From: a virus
Length of the DNA stretch: 26,045 nucleotides
Virus record (IMG/VR): IMGVR_UViG_3300028196_000076
Span: 1 to 26,045 of that record
Reading direction: 5' to 3' (one strand)
Position numbers and translations under genes: made by a program. Position 1 is the stretch's first letter. Each line of letters opens with the position of its first letter. Below, one piece after another: positions 2,132 to 25,232 of this stretch. The notes beneath the pieces were generated by a model. It was not told where the DNA came from, did not search any database, and worked only from the letters and a program-made list of their open reading frames with translations.

Positions 2132-3921
2132 TCTAACCTCGATATATTTCCTGACTTAACCACTTCTATTTTTTCTAGTAGGGGATGGGTCCACCCATGA
2201 CTTACTACATATGTGTTTAAATCTTCTTTAAGTAAAACTTCTACCATCTTCTCCCTTCCTGCATCATCAAGTACATTGATTACTTCATCTAAAAAAAGCA
2301 CATTGATTCTCGACTTTGATATACTACTCATTAGCTTTCGAATAGCAATCAGTGTAGCTGTATTTACTCTTGCCAGCTCTCCGCTAGACAGCGCAAGAAT
2401 ATCTACTATGCTACCATTGTCGGTAATTTGTACATTTAATTTATCATTTGTAACAACAAATTCTAAAGTGAATCTACCGTCAGATAATTCTGCAAGATAG
2501 TAGTTTGTAAGTTCTTCAAGTTCTTTTACTAGATTTTCGATCTTATAGGCGATTAATCCGTTCGTGCTAAATGCTTTCTTTAACACCTCGAGATTTCCTG
2601 CAATTTCTTGCTCTTTCTCAAGAGCGATACGCCCCTCTTCCAACTGTTGTTGAAATTCTTCAGTTTGCTCCAGGATTACTTGAATTCGTGTATTTCTTTT
2701 TGTTATTTGTTCGTTTTTTCTAGCTACTTCGTTTAATCTTTTTTGCGCTTCATTAAGTTTTTTACGGACGTCCGACAAACTCTTATCAAGTTCTTCTTTG
2801 TCCAATAAACTCGCTGGCAAGTGGACGTCAATGCTTCGAAAAATTTCTTGCCATTCTTGTTGAGTTTTTTGAGAGTCGGAGTAAAGTTCATTGTTTTGTC
2901 TAATTTTTTGTATTCTTGTTTTAAGCTCATCTTGTTTACCTTCTGCCTCCGCAATTTTCATAGATTCATTTAAAATTAGCTCTTGTTTAAAATCTGAGTT
3001 CACTGATTGCTCACAGGTGGGGCAAGTGTCTCCTAATTTATTTAGCTTATCTAAAAGTTTCTTCGACCCCGTTACGACCCCGTTGAGATTTCCTAGCTCT
3101 GATTGAAGTTCATCATAAGATACTTTTTCTTTTATAGAACAGTTTCTTGCAGACTCTATATCAATCGAACTCAACAGATTTTTATAAGTATTATTCTCTT
3201 GAATTTTTTTATTTTTTTCGGAAATATTTTTAATTTCCATCGTAAGCCTGGCGGCTTCCTTATCATCTTCTTCCGTCTCGATTATAAGATTTTCTAGAGG
3301 CAGTATGGATGTATCACTCAATTTATTATCATTCAACCATTTTTCTACAGTTGCTATCTGAGATTCTATGCGTGTTAAATTGTAGTAATGTGTTTTTGAC
3401 TCGCCCTTAAAGACTTCAAATAGCTCTACATATTTCTCTAAGTGGAGAAGATCAATAAGAAACTTCTTGCGGTTCGTATCCGTTGCAGTAAGAAACTGCA
3501 AACTACTATTTGTATTTTGGTACACCAACTGAGAGAAGGTTTTGAAATCGATTCCAATAATAGCTTGGAGTGTCTTATATGTATTGGTCGCTGTATGAGA
3601 ACTAATATCTTCTCCATCTTCCAAAAGACGAAGCTTAATACTAGACTTACGATCAATAATGACGTCATAGTGTTTGCTATCCTTGGTAAACTCTAAGTGA
3701 ATGTGATATCCCGCATTATTATAACGATTCGGAATATCTGCTTTTTTAATTCCTTTGGAGTTTTTGTTAAATAGGGCTTCTTCTATAATTAACGGGATGG
3801 AGGACTTCCCCATCCCGTTAGTGCCAACAAGTTGAGTTACTATATTTTCTTCTAGATTTAGCTCGTTGTTTTCCCCATAACTAAAACAATTACTCCATTT
3901 CAATTTTTGTAGCGTAATCAT
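2128..3921 (-). CDS. sbcC: SbcC/Rad50-like recombination nuclease subunit (T4 gp46, T5 D13-like)
   Basis: The ATPase subunit (597 residues) of the phage Mre11/Rad50-type complex that resects DNA ends for recombination-dependent replication. Walker A is GTNGMGKS at residues 33-40. A coiled coil runs from about 180 to 460 and is interrupted near residue 300 by a zinc-hook CPTCEQS. The ABC signature LSSGELARVN lies near 509, Walker B NVLFLDEV near 540, and the H-loop histidine in VVSHGWTHP. The compact length fits phage gp46 and not bacterial SbcC. Its start overlaps the nuclease-subunit gene by 32 bases, as expected for a co-translated pair. Confidence 0.95.
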   Translation of the reverse strand: MITLQKLKWSNCFSYGENNELNLEENIVTQLVGTNGMGKSSIPLIIEEALFNKNSKGIKKADIPNRYNNAGYHIHLEFTKDSKHYDVIIDRKSSIKLRLLEDGEDISSHTATNTYKTLQAIIGIDFKTFSQLVYQNTNSSLQFLTATDTNRKKFLIDLLHLEKYVELFEVFKGESKTHYYNLTRIESQIATVEKWLNDNKLSDTSILPLENLIIETEEDDKEAARLTMEIKNISEKNKKIQENNTYKNLLSSIDIESARNCSIKEKVSYDELQSELGNLNGVVTGSKKLLDKLNKLGDTCPTCEQSVNSDFKQELILNESMKIAEAEGKQDELKTRIQKIRQNNELYSDSQKTQQEWQEIFRSIDVHLPASLLDKEELDKSLSDVRKKLNEAQKRLNEVARKNEQITKRNTRIQVILEQTEEFQQQLEEGRIALEKEQEIAGNLEVLKKAFSTNGLIAYKIENLVKELEELTNYYLAELSDGRFTLEFVVTNDKLNVQITDNGSIVDILALSSGELARVNTATLIAIRKLMSSISKSRINVLFLDEVINVLDDAGREKMVEVLLKEDLNTYVVSHGWTHPLLEKIEVVKSGNISRLE

Positions 3922-16558: not shown

Positions 16559-16587
16559 TTATAAGTCTCCTATCAATTTATATACAT

Positions 16588-16616
16588 ATTATACTTGTAT
16601 TAGAAATAAAAGTCAA
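16588..16616 (-). promoter_or_regulatory. Sigma-70-type promoter
   Basis: Minus-strand -35 TTGACT (16611-16616) and -10 TATAAT (16588-16593) with a 17-base spacer; upstream flank AAATTTC. It drives the 27-residue membrane peptide and the HTH protein downstream. Confidence 0.9.
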
Positions 16617-16625
16617 GAAATTTTT

Positions 16626-17318
16626 TTAGATATGTGATAAGTCTACGCCGTACTTTTCGAGGTGAATGAGTTTCCCTAAATCATAGGCAAGCTGTGTTGC
16701 AGTGAAGCCCCCACCTTGCGCAGTAGTCCATCTCTCACTGTAATCATCATCTATTTTTTCAATCACCCAAATATTGTACGCCTTACTAGCGTACTTCTTT
16801 TCATAGTTTACATCTTTATAGCCTGCGAGCTCTGCTTGATAGTGTACTGATAGTTCCTGCTTAATTATGGCTGGGCCATGATATTTAGCCGACCATACTA
16901 TCTCTCCATTAGCAAAATTTTCTGCAACGCATTCATCCGGCAAGTAATCATAGAGCCCCTCTCCTTTCTGGGGGACTCCTGTACGTTCGATAATGGCTTT
17001 GACAAATCCTGATGATCTGTACAACCCCGCTGCGATTTCTGAAATTGTATCGCCAGACAGGAATCGAGTAACCGCATCTGCCACCTCTTCTTTTGTGGCC
17101 GCCCTGCCTTTGTTCTGGCTTTTTCTTTTTGAACGATATGCTTGCGTCTCTTCAAAGTCATCTATGATTCTCTGGAGCCGTGTTGTATTGTATGCTATAT
17201 TCAGGATATTGCAGGCTTCCTTCTTGGTTATAGGACTGCTGCCACTCAGAAGATCGATCACTTTCTGTATATTCGTATCGGACAAGTTCTCTGACTCTTT
17301 TTTCTTGATTCTTCTCAA
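16626..17318 (-). CDS. Double HTH regulator-like protein with unknown C-terminal domain
   Basis: A 230-residue protein. The first HTH lies near residues 28-55 (PITKKEACNILNIAYNTTR). A second lies near 74-117 (TKEEVADAVTRFLSGDTI, then SEIAAGLYRSSGFVKAII). The C-terminal ~110 residues (EIVWSAKYHGPAIIKQEL and KYASKAYNIWVIEKIDDDY) are an unassigned beta-rich domain. The only start that keeps the first HTH is TTG at 17316-17318, with AGGGAG ten bases upstream. That gives a 161-base out-of-frame overlap with the DUF3310 gene, which is unusual here. Possible transcription regulator or DNA-binding structural protein. Confidence 0.72.
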   Translation of the reverse strand: MRRIKKKESENLSDTNIQKVIDLLSGSSPITKKEACNILNIAYNTTRLQRIIDDFEETQAYRSKRKSQNKGRAATKEEVADAVTRFLSGDTISEIAAGLYRSSGFVKAIIERTGVPQKGEGLYDYLPDECVAENFANGEIVWSAKYHGPAIIKQELSVHYQAELAGYKDVNYEKKYASKAYNIWVIEKIDDDYSERWTTAQGGGFTATQLAYDLGKLIHLEKYGVDLSHI

Positions 17319-18859: not shown

Positions 18860-19299
18860 GTAACATTTTCTAGTCGGGTCATTAATCTTTCGGCTCGGTT
18901 CGTAACTTGTTTGTACCACAAAGAGTCTCGGCCTTCGACAGCGGCTTCTTTCCACTTGCCTTGAGACAGCATATTCTTCATGTTCATAAATCTTCCTAAA
19001 CGTGGGCCACCTAAATTAAATGCCATGTTTACTAGAATTAATTGAACCTCTTCTGGCCAATTGTGCCACTGTCCGTACAGTTGTTCGCAGTCCTTAATGG
19101 CAATCTGAATGTCTCTATCAAAACACTCTCTTGATCGCTCTGCTGTAATGGGAGTGCCGGTTGGCTCTCCAAACTCTTCATCTTGTTCTGTGACCAAGTG
19201 TCCAATACCAAAAGTATGGTAGCCCAAGTGGTCTTTATAAATTTCAAGAATTTCTCCTTCGTCTGATTTAATTTCTTCATAAAGTTTATCAATATTCAA
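18856..19299 (-). CDS. T4-type lysozyme (GH24 endolysin)
   Basis: A 147-residue muramidase that cleaves peptidoglycan at lysis. The T4 lysozyme triad is conserved: E14 in KSDEGEILEIYKD, D23 in YKDHLGY and T29 in GYHTFGIGHLVT. The C-terminal lobe includes LILVNMAFNLGG and WKEAAVEGRDSLWYKQVTNR. There is no signal peptide or signal-anchor, so export needs a holin, unless the protein is a virion component. The start overlaps the IscU stop by 4 bases (ATGA). It is the last gene of the cluster running from the M15 peptidase. Confidence 0.93.
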   Translation of the reverse strand: MNIDKLYEEIKSDEGEILEIYKDHLGYHTFGIGHLVTEQDEEFGEPTGTPITAERSRECFDRDIQIAIKDCEQLYGQWHNWPEEVQLILVNMAFNLGGPRLGRFMNMKNMLSQGKWKEAAVEGRDSLWYKQVTNRAERLMTRLENVT

Positions 19300-19670
19300 T
19301 GTTTGCTCCTATAGTCCGTGATTGCGGCTTTGATTGCGTCTTCAGCTAGTACACTACAATGTATTTTTACTGGCGGAAGTGATAATTCTTGAGCAATTTG
19401 GACATTGCTGATCTTTCCCGCTTCGTCAAGGGACTTTCCTCTAACCCATTCTGTGAGTAGTGATGAAGAAGCAATAGCACTGCCGCATCCGTAAGTTTTG
19501 AATTTAGCATCTTCAATAATTCCGTCGGTCGATACTCGGATTTGAAGTTGCATGACGTCTCCACATGCTGGAGCACCTGTGAGGCCCGTTCCGACATCTG
19601 GAGCATCTTTGTCAAGTTTTCCGACATTCCTGGGATTTTCATAATGATCTAATACCTTTTCTGAATACAT
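19296..19670 (-). CDS. iscU: IscU-type iron-sulfur cluster scaffold protein
   Basis: A full-length 124-residue IscU. All cluster-binding and handling residues are present and align with E. coli IscU within one position: C36 and D38 (GAPACGDVM), C62 (YGCGSAIASSS), H104 and C105 (KIHCS), and the HscA-binding motif LPPVK at 98-102. It would assemble Fe-S clusters from host IscS and deliver them through host HscA/HscB. No iscS, hscA or ferredoxin gene is in this window. It is coupled to the lysozyme gene (ATGA overlap) and follows the DUF6356-like gene by 3 bases, with AAGGA before the ATG. It is a host-derived metabolic gene carried by a phage. Confidence 0.95.
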   Translation of the reverse strand: MYSEKVLDHYENPRNVGKLDKDAPDVGTGLTGAPACGDVMQLQIRVSTDGIIEDAKFKTYGCGSAIASSSLLTEWVRGKSLDEAGKISNVQIAQELSLPPVKIHCSVLAEDAIKAAITDYRSKH

Positions 19671-20800: not shown

Positions 20801-21223
20801 TTATGAAATTGTAACCTTTATTGGTTGCAGTTCATTAGGGATTTCTTCATGTAAATCAATACATAGCAGTCCGCGTTCCATGTAAGCTCTATCTAGTTTT
20901 ACGTGCTCACTTACGCCGAATGTGCGTGAGAAGCACTTACCACTTAAGCCTTTGTAAACATAAGCTTCGTTGCTAGATTCTACCTGCTTTACAGTGCCCG
21001 ATACTGTCAACAAGCCCTTATGAAGGCTAATCTCAAGATCATCTTTATTCCAGCCAGGCACAGCTAATTCGACTCGAAAGCCTTGCTCGCCTACACGTAG
21101 AATATTGAATCGAGGATACCCACCATCGAGTGTGGGGGCAAAAACACTGGTGTCATTGAACATTCGGTCAAAACCTAACATAAATTTATGTAGGTCTGCC
21201 ACTGCTAGTTTAGCATTAGTCAT
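20801..21223 (-). CDS. Small heat-shock protein Hsp20 (alpha-crystallin)
   Basis: A 140-residue holdase of the Hsp20 family. The alpha-crystallin domain covers about residues 35-128: YPRFNILRVGEQGFRVELAV, PGWNKDDLEISLHKGLLTVS, YKGLSGKCFSRTFGVSE and a final strand. The C-terminal IKVTI is the IxI motif that mediates oligomer assembly. Phage Hsp20 proteins are known in myophages of marine bacteria and are thought to assist folding during infection or virion assembly. AGGAG lies six bases before the ATG, after two tandem GAAA-loop hairpins in the leader. Confidence 0.93.
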   Translation of the reverse strand: MTNAKLAVADLHKFMLGFDRMFNDTSVFAPTLDGGYPRFNILRVGEQGFRVELAVPGWNKDDLEISLHKGLLTVSGTVKQVESSNEAYVYKGLSGKCFSRTFGVSEHVKLDRAYMERGLLCIDLHEEIPNELQPIKVTIS

Positions 21224-21309: not shown

Positions 21310-21717
21310 TTAAGGAGCGCAAACTCCTCCGTCTTCAGATGAGTCGAACATATCGTCGCCACATCCGTATTTTCCATCATTATCAGTATCACAGAAACGT
21401 TGGAAAGCCTGCATATTAAATGTATAGCCCTCGCTCCAAGGAACGTATACTTGGCACCAACCGTGACTACCTACAGCAAAAGGATCTTGCGGTTGTGGAA
21501 CGTAGTCTCTTGAAGTCCAAGGCTTTTGAACCCTAAAAAAGGTATCCTTGTTTTTCATCAATTGTCGCTTAAACAACGCACTGCGTGGAGTGCTGATGTA
21601 AATTTCTTGCTCGTCCGTGAGTGTATACGTCGATCCATCGTCATAGTTGATTACAGTTTCTGCACTGATTCCGGCCGAGAGGCCGAGAAGTGCCAACCCT
21701 GCTATAATCTTTCGCAT
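21310..21717 (-). CDS. Secreted protein with signal peptide and calcium-loop-like motif
   Basis: A 135-residue protein starting at ATG 21717 with AGGAGG four bases upstream. The N-terminus is a clear Sec signal peptide: MRKIIAGLALLGLSAGISA, with probable cleavage after ISA. The mature part is acidic and aromatic, with paired cysteines (HGWCQVYV, QRFCDTDNDGKYGCGDDMF, GVCAP). DTDNDGKYGCGD resembles an EF-hand or excalibur-type calcium loop. It would go to the periplasm of the infected cell. Function unknown; superinfection exclusion or envelope alteration are possibilities without direct support. It lies immediately downstream of the tmRNA coding piece. Confidence 0.82.
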   Translation of the reverse strand: MRKIIAGLALLGLSAGISAETVINYDDGSTYTLTDEQEIYISTPRSALFKRQLMKNKDTFFRVQKPWTSRDYVPQPQDPFAVGSHGWCQVYVPWSEGYTFNMQAFQRFCDTDNDGKYGCGDDMFDSSEDGGVCAP

Positions 21718-21731
21718 ATAACCTCCTTTGG

Positions 21732-21898
21732 TTAACATGAGGATTTCTGTTGCCAGGCTCCTCGGACCCCGCACACCTAATTAGGCTGCAAGTGTATAAA
21801 CGTCATCATTGGCATTTATTAAGTTTGTTGCGTTAACGTAGCTTCCGCACGGATTCTCCATAAGTCTACTGTACGCCTGTCGAGTCTGTATCAGCCCC
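21732..21898 (-). ncRNA. tmRNA coding piece
   Basis: It begins with the acceptor 5' strand GGGGCTG (21892-21898) and the D-loop-like GATACAGACTCGACAGG, which parallels GATTCTGGATTCGACGGG of bacterial tmRNA. A hairpin CCGUGCGG lies before the tag. After the tag, GCA-G-CCU and AGG-UG-UGC pair across the stop codon (helix 5-like). An H-type pseudoknot follows: GAGGA (21759-21763) with UCCUC (21739-21743), and loop AACA (21748-21751) with UGUU (21734-21737). The 3' end is probably near 21732, just before the next gene's ribosome-binding site. Confidence 0.85.
21781..21813 (-). other. tmRNA tag reading frame (ANDDVYTLAA-stop)
   Basis: Ten codons from the resume codon GCC (21811-21813) to UAA (21781-21783). 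The tag keeps the AND start and the LAA end of bacterial tags (E. coli ANDENYALAA). In hosts these two ends serve SspB and ClpX recognition, so tagged proteins should be degraded by ClpXP. Confidence 0.9.
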
Positions 21899-22036
21899 GT
21901 CATAAAAAGTCTTTCTGCGTCGTTTATTGTACTTACGTTTGAGTGCTTTTCGCTCTCCAGATCTCCATCTAAGAAAACCTTTGCTTTTGCGATCAAGTCC
22001 GTCAAACTCATCACCACCTTTCATTGGTATACGCAT
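21866..22036 (-). CDS. 56-residue basic protein encoded in the tmRNA intervening segment
   Basis: Starts at ATG 22036 with a strong TAAGGAG seven bases upstream, directly after the CCA end of the acceptor piece. The N-terminal part, MRIPMKGGDEFDGLDRKSKG, and the strongly basic WRSGERKALKRKYNKRRRK resemble a small conserved phage protein of unknown role. The last 11 codons (DGADTDSTGVQ) are read from the first bases of the tmRNA coding piece, so gene and RNA overlap by about 30 bases. Processing of the tmRNA precursor would destroy this message, making the two outcomes mutually exclusive per transcript. Confidence 0.75.
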   Translation of the reverse strand: MRIPMKGGDEFDGLDRKSKGFLRWRSGERKALKRKYNKRRRKTFYDGADTDSTGVQ

Positions 22037-22050
22037 TATAAAACTCCTTA

Positions 22051-22105
22051 TGGTGGAGCTGTCGGGATTCGCACCCGAGTCCAACCGTCAGTTTATTACT
22101 TCAAC
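22051..22105 (-). ncRNA. tmRNA acceptor piece
   Basis: Contains, 5' to 3', AAGU and ACUGAC for helix 2, GGUUGGAC, a 5-bp T-stem (22062-22066 with 22074-22078) with the 7-base loop TGCGAAT, the acceptor 3' strand CAGCTCC (22055-22061), discriminator A and an encoded CCA (22051-22053). Relative to E. coli the outer T-stem pair is changed on both sides (G-C to T-A), keeping the pairing. Its 5' part overlaps the stop of the gene at 22096-22254. Confidence 0.87.
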
Positions 22106-22254
22106 AAATCATTAGAGTCCTCTATCTTAAGAGTACCACTTTCTATAAGGAAAGAAACAGTGTGTTCTATACCTACACGCCTTCCTAGGTGCCAGGCAGT
22201 AGCAGAGCACCCGACCATACAGATCCCGAATACAATGTAAGCTGATAACATCAT
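22096..22254 (-). CDS. Small membrane-anchored conserved phage protein (52 residues)
   Basis: A 52-residue protein starting at ATG 22254 (a second ATG follows at once) with GGAG upstream and a promoter at 22284-22312. A hydrophobic N-terminal segment (SAYIVFGICMVGCSATAWHL) is followed by GRRVGIEHTVSFLIESGTLK and a short acidic end. The second half looks like a conserved small phage protein with an N-terminal membrane anchor, of unknown function. Its 3' end overlaps the 5' portion of the tmRNA acceptor piece. Confidence 0.78.
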   Translation of the reverse strand: MMLSAYIVFGICMVGCSATAWHLGRRVGIEHTVSFLIESGTLKIEDSNDLLK

Positions 22255-22564: not shown

Positions 22565-22754
22565 AGTAAGAAATAATAATGTAGAGGCCGCATTGCGAGT
22601 TTTTAAAAGAAAATGTGTTGAGCACATTTGGGACTATAAACAACGAGAATACTACGAAAAACCTTCAGAAAAGAAGAGAAAAGCAAAACAAGCTGGTATT
22701 GCTCGTGCTAGAAAAAGGAGAAGAGACAGTGAGCCTAAACGGAACAAATTTTGA
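22551..22754 (+). CDS. rpsU: Ribosomal protein bS21 homologue
   Basis: A 67-residue basic protein matching bacterial bS21 along its length: VKVRNNNVEAALRVFKRKC, the family core REYYEKPSEKKRKAK, and an Arg/Lys-rich C-terminal helix (ARARKRRRD). bS21 sits on the 30S platform near the anti-Shine-Dalgarno end of 16S rRNA and affects initiation. bS21 genes are known in some phages. The start is GTG, with GGTGG seven bases upstream. It overlaps the HTH gene before it and the MazG-like gene after it, so the three are co-translated. Confidence 0.92.
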   Translation: MPAVKVRNNNVEAALRVFKRKCVEHIWDYKQREYYEKPSEKKRKAKQAGIARARKRRRDSEPKRNKF

Positions 22755-23115
22755 GCTTGTAGGTGATTTCATGCAGGCCTTTGGTCAAGATGTAGAAGAT
22801 CAACCAACCTGGCCGGATTTTAACACTCGTGAACTACGGGTAGATTTAATACAAGAAGAAGTAGATGAGCTTGTGGAAGCGATTGCAAACAAAGACATGG
22901 TGGAAATTGCAGATGCTCTCACCGACATTCTCTATGTTGTGTACGGTGCTGGTCATACATTTGGTATTGACCTTGATGAGTGTTTTACTGAGGTACATGC
23001 TAGTAACATGAGTAAGCTCGGTGAAGATGGCACTCCAATCAAAAATGAAAGCGGTAAGGTAATGAAAGGCCCGGGGTTCTTTGCTCCTGATCTAGAAAGC
23101 ATACTAAATCCGTAG
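22729..23115 (+). CDS. MazG-like nucleotide pyrophosphohydrolase
   Basis: A 128-residue all-alpha NTP-PPase. The metal-binding motif is split as LIQEEVDELVEAI and VEIADALTDILYVVYGAG, giving the ExxE...ExxD pattern of MazG and phosphoribosyl-ATP pyrophosphohydrolase-like proteins. It ends in GKVMKGPGFFAPDLESIL, seen in phage members of this group. It could hydrolyse non-canonical or excess (d)NTPs; a role in lowering (p)ppGpp has been proposed for phage MazG proteins. GTG start (22729-22731) with AAGGAG eight bases upstream; an earlier in-frame ATG inside bS21 is unlikely. Confidence 0.9.
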   Translation: MSLNGTNFELVGDFMQAFGQDVEDQPTWPDFNTRELRVDLIQEEVDELVEAIANKDMVEIADALTDILYVVYGAGHTFGIDLDECFTEVHASNMSKLGEDGTPIKNESGKVMKGPGFFAPDLESILNP

Positions 23116-23562: not shown

Positions 23563-23713
23563 ATTGGGTAAAGATCAAAGGAAATAATACAAGACCTGCC
23601 CATGAAAGAAAAATTGCCATTAATTCCGTTAGATTATCAGGTGGTGGCTTGTAATCGAGTACAGTTATAGTGACATATGTCCACCAGCCCCCAATTAATA
23701 CTAGTTTAATCAT
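23561..23713 (-). CDS. 50-residue two-helix membrane microprotein
   Basis: An ORF of 50 residues with two hydrophobic segments: MIKLVLIGGWWTYVTITVL and, after a short polar turn (DYKPPPDNLTE), LMAIFLSWAGLVLFPLIF. The helix-turn-helix hairpin topology is like small class II holins, but identity is unproven. Its ATG (23711-23713) overlaps the end of the upstream HTH gene. Its stop lies in the U-run of the plus-strand terminator. Confidence 0.65.
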   Translation of the reverse strand: MIKLVLIGGWWTYVTITVLDYKPPPDNLTELMAIFLSWAGLVLFPLIFTQ

Positions 23714-24041
23714 CTTCGTAACCCCGCTCCGACCCCGTTATAGCTTTCTCTAGATTCCTAAGAGTCGTTTTTGGACTCTTGTCTAGCCCCAGTAATGCCC
23801 CCATTTCAAGACCGAGACTTTCAGCAATGCTTGAGACAATCTCCACTTTTGTTATAGGCTTTTCTCCTGTCTTCGACATGTATACCTCTCTTCGATATAC
23901 ACCTTCGCGTGATAACTTTCCGATTATAGACTTTTTACTCCTTCGTAGTTGTTCTACCAGAATGCTTACAGTTTCTGCACAGGGGTTATCTTTATATAGC
24001 TGAACCATATAAGTTGTTTCGCTATCCGAATAATTACTCAT
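23706..24041 (-). CDS. HTH-module DNA-binding protein
   Basis: A 111-residue protein whose N-terminal part repeats the HTH module of other proteins in this window: NYSDSETTYMVQLYKDNP, then SILVEQLRRSKKSIIGKLSR, then EGVYRRE. The C-terminal half (KPITKVEIVSSIAESLGLEM, then LGLDKSPKTTLRNLEKAI) is a second helical region, as in phage DNA-binding proteins of unknown role. The ATG at 24041 is chosen because GAGGA is eight bases upstream and it overlaps the previous stop; an ATG at 24047 is too close to that site. Confidence 0.8.
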   Translation of the reverse strand: MSNYSDSETTYMVQLYKDNPCAETVSILVEQLRRSKKSIIGKLSREGVYRREVYMSKTGEKPITKVEIVSSIAESLGLEMGALLGLDKSPKTTLRNLEKAITGSERGYEDD

Positions 24042-24339
24042 TTTCATCTTCCTCAGATGAGATTATATACTCAATCTCACCAGTTTCCATATTAATTTTA
24101 ATGTTGTCACTTACATAGTCTAGAAAGCCTATCTCAATATTTTCTATGCCTCGTACTTTAACATAGGTTCCAAACTGGTCATTGTACAAATTTTCATATT
24201 GATTGATCTTAGCGTCGACTTGTTCCAGGGTTTCATAGCACAAAGCCTGTGCCTTGTATAGCTCTTCTAGCTCTGCTTGTGTTTGTTCTAGTTTAGCTTT
24301 TACACAGCGGTCTTCTGGAAATTGTAAAATGTTACTCAT
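24034..24339 (-). CDS. Coiled-coil conserved phage protein
   Basis: A 101-residue protein starting at ATG 24339 with GGGAG upstream. After MSNILQFPEDRCV comes a coiled coil (KLEQTQAELEELYKAQALCY, continuing to about residue 50), then a short beta-rich region (FGTYVKVRGIENIEIGFLDY) and an acidic tail (SSEEDENE). The function is unknown. An upstream in-frame extension to 24411 is hydrophobic but lies in and before the promoter, so it is not translated. Its stop overlaps the start of the HTH gene. Confidence 0.78.
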   Translation of the reverse strand: MSNILQFPEDRCVKAKLEQTQAELEELYKAQALCYETLEQVDAKINQYENLYNDQFGTYVKVRGIENIEIGFLDYVSDNIKINMETGEIEYIISSEEDENE

Positions 24340-24361
24340 ATATTTCTCCCATAGAACACAT

Positions 24362-24390
24362 ATTATACAGCATATATACAAAAAAGTCAA
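24362..24390 (-). promoter_or_regulatory. Sigma-70-type promoter
   Basis: Minus-strand -35 TTGACT (24385-24390) and -10 TATAAT (24362-24367), spacer 17, with ATATGTG downstream. It lies directly after the terminator of the large RNA and starts the next operon. Confidence 0.9.
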
Positions 24391-24411
24391 GTAAATTTTT
24401 TTAGGACACAC

Positions 24412-24448
24412 AAAAAAATCCCCACATATTTCTATGCAGGGATTTTAC
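24412..24448 (-). terminator. Intrinsic terminator of the large RNA
   Basis: On the minus strand AAAATCCC (24439-24446) pairs with GGGATTTT (24415-24422) around a 16-base loop and runs into seven Ts (24412-24418). It ends transcription from the promoter at 25015-25044. Confidence 0.85.
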
Positions 24449-25008
24449 AGTTAGGTTTAGAGCCGCGAACTGCCACTAGGCTATATAATGCCTTTCGTTA
24501 TGGTCAAGGGTTTCGACGCCTTTTTGCAATAAGAGACCACTAATAAAAAGGGCTTCCTCCTATAGTTTAGATGATACGCACCACCTTCCTCACGTACCTG
24601 AAGTCGTACCGCGAATACAACCTCACCGCGTTTTTGTTTTTAGTAACCCAGAATACAAATCGCACTAACTGGTAACTGGGCAGAAGCTATACGTCTTCTG
24701 AACGTACACCGACTGTACCCTTCGGCGTAGAGGGAGCCGATATAGAACCTCGGCTAAGGAAAGTGCTGTCAGTAGCACAAAGCTAAGATGGTACTTTTTA
24801 AAGTGCTTTGCCATCTCACATTAGCACTACAAACGATGCCTTCTTCTCCCGTCGGAGAGACAGGTCAACGATTGCTCGGTTGTAAGCATAACGGCTTACA
24901 AAAATAAGGTTGGGGCTCCGGATAGGCATGGAACTTTTACCGGGATCTTTACTGCCTCATCGCGAGTGGGTAGCAACACTCATGGCGTCCTTGGCTTCCC
25001 CCATTTGA
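24413..25008 (-). ncRNA. Candidate large structured RNA of about 590 nt
   Basis: A stretch of about 600 bases without an ORF of 60 codons on either strand, bounded by a promoter and a terminator. Many short perfect hairpins occur: 24964-24981 (5 bp), 24924-24957 (5 bp), 24881-24900 (7 bp, TGTAAGC/GCTTACA), 24845-24858 (5 bp), 24787-24815 (5 bp plus inner 5 bp), 24763-24778 (5 bp), 24735-24755 (6 bp), 24681-24700 (6 bp), and CCCAG/CTGGG between 24647 and 24680. By eye it is richer in G+C than its neighbours. Size and setting recall large phage RNAs such as GOLLD and ROOL, but I cannot confirm membership. It lacks tmRNA or RNase P signatures. Confidence 0.8.
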
Positions 25009-25014
25009 ATAGAT

Positions 25015-25044
25015 ATTATACATGGTTTTTGGACTGAAAGTCAA
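25015..25044 (-). promoter_or_regulatory. Sigma-70-type promoter of the large RNA
   Basis: Minus-strand -35 TTGACT (25039-25044) and -10 TATAAT (25015-25020), spacer 18. AGTTC lies upstream as at sister promoters. The TGA stop of the gene ending at 25041 forms part of the -35 box. Predicted RNA start near 25008. Confidence 0.85.
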
Positions 25045-25232
25045 GAACTTTTTTTCCTCACCCCTGAAATTTTTTCAAATCTTTTATACCCAGTGCCCTT
25101 CTCATTGTACTCCAGGACCAACCCATCATTGTTCATATGCAGTTTAGGCAAGAACTTTTCTACGTCAGCTTCGTACACACAAAAAGTACGCAGACGCCAC
25201 GCTATATTCTCTGCACCGCTTTTAAGTTCCAC
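25041..25232 (-). CDS. Small hypothetical protein
   Basis: A 63-residue protein beginning at GTG (25230-25232), with AGGTG seven bases upstream and an 11-base overlap with the previous gene. It is basic with alternating hydrophobic residues (WRLRTFCVYEADVEKFLPKL, then NNDGLVLEYNEKGTGYKRFE). No family is recognised. Its stop codon is part of the promoter of the large RNA, so the end of this operon and the start of the RNA are fused. Confidence 0.7.
   Translation of the reverse strand: MELKSGAENIAWRLRTFCVYEADVEKFLPKLHMNNDGLVLEYNEKGTGYKRFEKISGVRKKSS

Follow-up and report, generated by a model that had tools for sequence, protein, structure and literature searches.

Organization of the RNA locus

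The window, by which we mean the whole stretch of DNA analysed (26,045 nt), is a virus record of 26 kb that carries a T5-like set of replication genes; the DNA polymerases of T5-like Aeromonas and Escherichia phages share 44% identity with that of the window. Between two small genes at 25041–25232 and 24034–24348 lies a non-coding RNA gene, which is listed here with its signals and its downstream surroundings.

24412–25008, minus strand: non-coding RNA gene of about 597 nt, with a predicted start 7 nt after the −10 box and its end at the T-run of the terminator
25015–25044, minus strand: sigma70-type promoter of the RNA (TTGACT, 18-nt spacer, TATAAT; 11 of 12 matches)
24415–24446, minus strand: intrinsic terminator hairpin followed by a T-run (stem of 14 positions, 12 of them Watson-Crick)
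24362–24390, minus strand: separate promoter of the downstream operon
23706–24047, minus strand: downstream helix-turn-helix-like gene, a synteny anchor outside the RNA

The sequence-only reading had described an RNA gene of about 600 bases with its own promoter and terminator, and both its coordinates and its anatomy were right; the gene is on the minus strand, the promoter running from 25044 to 25015 and the terminator from 24446 to 24415. The stretch was also correctly described as free of ORFs, as none of at least 50 aa was found on either strand between promoter and terminator. Promoter, terminator and the lack of a conserved ORF mark this, on sequence evidence, as a stand-alone, intrinsically terminated RNA gene. 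Elsewhere in the window, a promoter region at 16576–16627 (minus strand) is 79% identical to that of the RNA, which suggests a promoter class common to both in this phage.

The window also carries a tmRNA gene, which accounts for its only Rfam matches at gathering score (21736–22157).

21690–22143, minus strand: permuted two-piece tmRNA of the alphaproteobacterial type, with the tag ANDDVYTLAA

The spacer from its acceptor piece to its coding piece holds a 56-codon ORF beginning MRIPMKGGDEFDGL, and the versions in L088 and L097 start nearly identically (L numbers are our handles for other loci and contigs). Genes for a NifU-like iron-sulfur scaffold and an Hsp20 were found at 19296–19670 and 20801–21223 (minus strand), and a gene for a MazG-like pyrophosphohydrolase at 22615–23115 on the plus strand, opposite to most of the window.

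Homologues and coding potential

Relatives were fetched from IMG/VR with the neighbouring small genes as anchors and then with patterns from the most conserved stretch, and duplicates were removed. The downstream protein at 24037–24348, used as an anchor, retrieved no relatives. The same RNA occupies this slot in the window and in 14 IMG/VR loci, which gives 15 sequences of 441–686 nt, and in all 15 a TTGAC..TATAATAT promoter stands directly ahead of the RNA and a terminator behind it. The RNA is most constant over its first 100 nt or so and varies in its 3′ half. This 5′ core is identical to that of the window in L083 and L084, the remainder of the RNA being 92% and 98% identical, respectively; the first ~100 nt are 83–90% identical to those of the window in L088, L090, L091 and L094. 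Larger differences also occur: about 110 nt of the 3′ part are missing from L084, L100 is longer by more than 100 nt, L088 is without the pseudoknot domain, and L094 and L108/L109 have a different terminator stem in the same place. When a model of the 5′ domain (R1) was run on contigs fetched via the downstream helix-turn-helix gene, 14 distinct divergent copies were found (E from 1e-14 to 2e-3), which brought the total to 29 sequences and the range of RNA sizes to about 345–686 nt. In this analysis the RNA was met only in marine T5-like phages. Nine further contigs retrieved with a 3′ hairpin pattern (L115–L123) look protein-coding and lack the core, and they were set aside.

Open stretches of 45–115 codons are present in some members, as might be expected if the region were a pseudogene or held several small coding genes in a cluster. 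However, frames and stops differ among the homologues, many of their indels are not multiples of three, and pairing is preserved by compensatory changes, so that we give the coding reading almost no credence. The sequence-only reading had named conservation of a reading frame rather than of pairing as one observation that would speak against an RNA; the opposite was seen, with no conserved frame and with pairing kept by compensatory changes.

Covariation and overall fold

The minimum free energy of the RNA is −192 kcal/mol (z = −2.7), and no shuffled sequence was as low; since the mean z over the 15 homologues is only −1.6, folding energy is modestly unusual and by itself weak evidence, and stability would not carry the claim of a structured RNA. 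The "at least nine perfect hairpins" reported earlier were an overstatement, as only two perfect inverted repeats of at least 7 nt with arms less than 30 nt apart are present (24880–24887/24894–24901 and 24519–24525/24545–24551), and most helices of the RNA are of 4–7 bp.

It is covariation in the homologues, and not energy, that points to structure beyond chance. The count for 11 close sequences took in 19 helices with 95 pairs; pairing holds in 92.8% of cells, and 20 of the 95 pairs show a change on both sides. Double-changed cells number 43, against 14.8 ± 3.4 in shuffled controls and at most 13 in slid controls, although the helices were named by eye on the very sequences counted, which favours them in these counts. 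Shuffling removes no relatedness among the sequences, and the slid controls retain it. In the wide set, a MAFFT alignment made independently of the model gave 55 double-changed cells (14.5 ± 4.0 shuffled; at most 11 slid), and the model-fitted wide alignment gave 93 (22.9 shuffled). Compensatory changes in the RNA exceed both kinds of control, and the search for homologues in metagenomic phages that had been proposed from the sequence was borne out by the 14 IMG/VR loci and the 14 divergent copies, with covariation above shuffled and slid controls. The following elements lie downstream of the 5′ domain.

24803–24827, minus strand: stem a of an H-type pseudoknot (24823–24827 with 24803–24807), invariant in the 11 sequences and as such neutral evidence
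24785–24817, minus strand: stem b of the pseudoknot (24811–24817 with 24785–24791), every cell paired, one pair changed on both sides
24735–24755, minus strand: hairpin P8 (24750–24755 with 24735–24740), 3 of 6 pairs changed on both sides
24573–24598, minus strand: hairpin P12 (GGTACGTG/TGCGTATC), every cell paired

A scan of our own over the wider set gave six covarying pairs for stem b, and in P12 a C-G pair becomes U-A or G-C in three sequences (L088, L090 and L094).

The 5′ three-way-junction core

The conserved core is a domain of about 85–140 nt composed of P1, P2/P3 and P4, in which the unpaired positions GAUAAG, CAGUAAAGAU and GUAAA are near-invariant and the helices vary. Its elements in the window are as follows.

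24906–25003, minus strand: conserved 5′ three-way-junction core domain (123.5 bits with model R1; compensatory changes)
24998–25001 (GGGG) with 24912–24915 (CCCC), minus strand: helix P1, with GC, AU, UA and CG pair types in relatives
24993–24995 (GCC) with 24954–24956 (GGC), minus strand: helix P2, whose middle pair is UA in 13, CG in 11 and AU in 3
24985–24987 (CGC) with 24961–24963, minus strand: helix P2b, invariant in the close set, with 2 of 3 pairs covarying in the wide set
24964–24981, minus strand: hairpin P3 of variable length (stems 24977–24981/24964–24968), 4 of 5 pairs changed on both sides
24918–24943, minus strand: hairpin P4 with loop GUAAA (stems 24940–24943/24918–24921, CCGG/CCGG), both sides of the outer pair differ in 12 of 27 rows (CG, GC, UA)

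One relative has GAGG/CCUC as its P1, P2 occurs as GUC/GAC, GCC/GGC or GAC/GUC, and the variants of P4 are CCGG/CCGG, GCGG/CCGC, CCAG/CUGG and others.

Portability of the core

In most members (the window class, L152, L167, L184, L200 and L201) the core occupies the 5′ end of the RNA. L134/L145 carry it within another type of RNA, between stretches that are present without the core in L131, and in L151, L165 and L162 it follows a small ORF and precedes a terminator, so it is not always a gene of its own. In L183, L185 and L196 the core follows, or belongs to, a permuted tmRNA and sits on the tip of a stem; these copies score low by model alone and were accepted on matching anatomy, with P1, P2 (a third pair type, A-U), P3 and P4 all present, as well as CAGUAAAGAU in L196. 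A comparison of L185 with L201 is instructive, as the two agree over 42 nt ahead of the insertion point and about 26 nt behind it; the point is occupied by the core in L185 and by a different loop of about 30 nt in L201. Identical flanks with the core or with another loop, together with the core in L134/L145, argue that the core is a transferable, autonomous module, with P1 as the apparent graft stem.

In L184, an abiF RNA motif (RF03085, above gathering score) was found at 3180–3211, beside two tRNA genes and less than 300 nt ahead of a member of the present RNA family.

Comparison with known RNAs

No Rfam 15 family, HEARO, OLE, raiA, GOLLD and ROOL included, matched within the RNA at gathering score, and none of these five appeared in 24350–25100 at E ≤ 10; the divergent member L151 gave no match to the GOLLD and ROOL models at E ≤ 3. 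The resemblance to GOLLD and ROOL proposed by the sequence-only reading extends to size and phage setting, and membership of either family is unsupported, with no covariance-model match. Its reading of a structured non-coding RNA gene is strongly supported, as is its other suggestion, that the sequence could be a new class. The best sub-threshold match was to the Bacillus sRNA ncr1575 (RF02452; 29.8 bits against a gathering score of 60, E = 0.028); the likeness comes largely from the terminator hairpin and was treated as chance.

Several other candidates were considered and rejected. A sponge of the CsrB/RsmZ type was dismissed because 7–15 GGA per 441–686 nt, counted over the whole RNA, is close to chance (estimated at one per 64 nt), and a resemblance to RNase P and group I introns was judged by eye, their models being unmatched. 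BLASTN of stretches from the window, L107, L151 and L185 against 50,697 GenBank phage records gave nothing or short chance matches, and L107 had no match among 72,556 plasmids. The DNA pattern of the core found nothing in GTDB genomes, and the model did not confirm the sites of two matches from a relaxed pattern. The bacterial genomes scanned by model were 289 of one class and one further genome, that of L113; in the 289, from the class of G001 (Chelatococcus, Alphaproteobacteria), model R2 detected no core under stricter filters and with no positive control. A literature search matched the GOLLD/ROOL paper and none describing the present RNA.

GOLLD resembles our RNA in general character: both are large, complex, phage-encoded and non-coding, with one conserved and one variable region, and some members of the present family lie near tRNA or tmRNA genes (L184, L201). 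However, GOLLD conserves its 3′ region and many of its members exceed 800 nt (PMC12286853), whereas the present RNA conserves its 5′ ~100 nt, the reverse polarity, measures about 345–686 nt and leaves the GOLLD model unmatched. ROOL is likewise a large phage RNA with pseudoknots, of unknown function (PMC12286853); its model is also unmatched, and our RNA differs in lacking a fixed global architecture and in being met here only in marine T5-like phages. The permuted tmRNA (RF04321; alpha_tmRNA, RF01849) occurs in the same phages, within a few kilobases of the RNA in several members, and L183, L185 and L196 have the core grafted next to it. It is nevertheless a separate gene in the window (21690–22143), and neither ARAGORN nor the tmRNA models matched the RNA.

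Discussion

Phages have repeatedly posed the puzzle of large structured RNAs with no known function, and to our knowledge few classes of them have been described. In this study, we concluded that the locus belongs to a new family of structured phage RNA with a portable core, which is absent from current Rfam and for which no describing paper was found. That the RNA is structured is, in our judgement, very probable.

Considering the above results, we propose a plausible model for its mode of action. To judge from the promoter, host RNA polymerase with sigma70 would transcribe an RNA of about 600 nt that ends at the intrinsic terminator and presumably works in trans as RNA. In the folded transcript, peripheral domains that can be exchanged, a pseudoknot among them, would come after the 5′ three-way-junction core, and phages would graft the core onto different RNAs through the P1 stem. 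The near-invariant, unpaired centre of the core may serve as the surface that a protein or a ribosomal component binds, with the RNA outside the core as a scaffold. A fixed, binding-like centre, interchangeable surroundings and a stand-alone, terminated gene are most simply read as a trans-acting binding RNA, and the sequence pattern suggests that it is probably a protein- or ribosome-binding hub. Taken whole, with its mechanism, the reading as a stand-alone, trans-acting structured RNA whose modular core is the binding surface is held tentatively, at somewhat less than an even chance.

The same conservation could reflect an activity of the core itself. It is possible, if doubtful, that the core is a new catalytic or ligand-binding class of RNA, carried by P1 onto unrelated RNAs, the stem tip beside tmRNA among them, with a shared activity; a core shown to be catalytic or ligand-sensing would form a new class by itself. 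The narrower proposal of a small self-cleaving ribozyme or a processing signal that trims the transcripts carrying it would suit the compact, near-invariant junction nucleotides with free stems and the several RNA contexts, including that beside the permuted tmRNA. However, known ribozyme models are unmatched, and cleavage in the window class, where the core is at the extreme 5′ end, would free little, which makes this rather unlikely. A cis-acting riboswitch or attenuator, in which the core senses a ligand and controls whether transcription runs past the terminator into the operon downstream, would explain why the conservation pattern is aptamer-like and why the terminator lies just upstream of a gene. 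Yet that operon is served by a separate promoter, the RNA exceeds the required length by hundreds of bases, and L094 and L108/L109 have a wholly different terminator stem but no corresponding changes in the core; we regard such regulation as quite unlikely.

Other explanations turn on the RNA as a whole. A decoy against a host defence or a host RNA-binding factor, whose fast-changing periphery would record an arms race, accords with the gain and loss of modules and with the mutually different, ORF-free, RNA-like units that occupy the same slot in related phages; it is an unlikely explanation, as conservation of the core is higher than would be expected from an arms race alone and no target or defence system was identified. 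Size, phage setting, a multi-domain fold with a pseudoknot and the gene's own promoter and terminator recall the RNA-only oligomers or cages formed by GOLLD and ROOL, but neither sequence nor structure matches them, and homologues of about 345–686 nt in which domains are gained and lost are unlike a fixed assembly interface, so a cage seems improbable.

Returning to the trans-acting binding RNA, its function is made testable by 29 sequences, a small core and a natural graft experiment in the form of identical flanks with and without the core, and a covariance-supported core of about 100 nt fits in vitro work.

The slot upstream of the helix-turn-helix gene is itself of interest. In L131, L138, L142, L143, L146, L148, L149, L154, L156 and L163 it holds other, mutually different units running from promoter to terminator; those that were measured are 205–303 nt long and ORF-free, and they may be further RNA families. 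In marine T5-like phages, the analysis brings to light a locus at which RNA-like units of differing architecture take one another's place.
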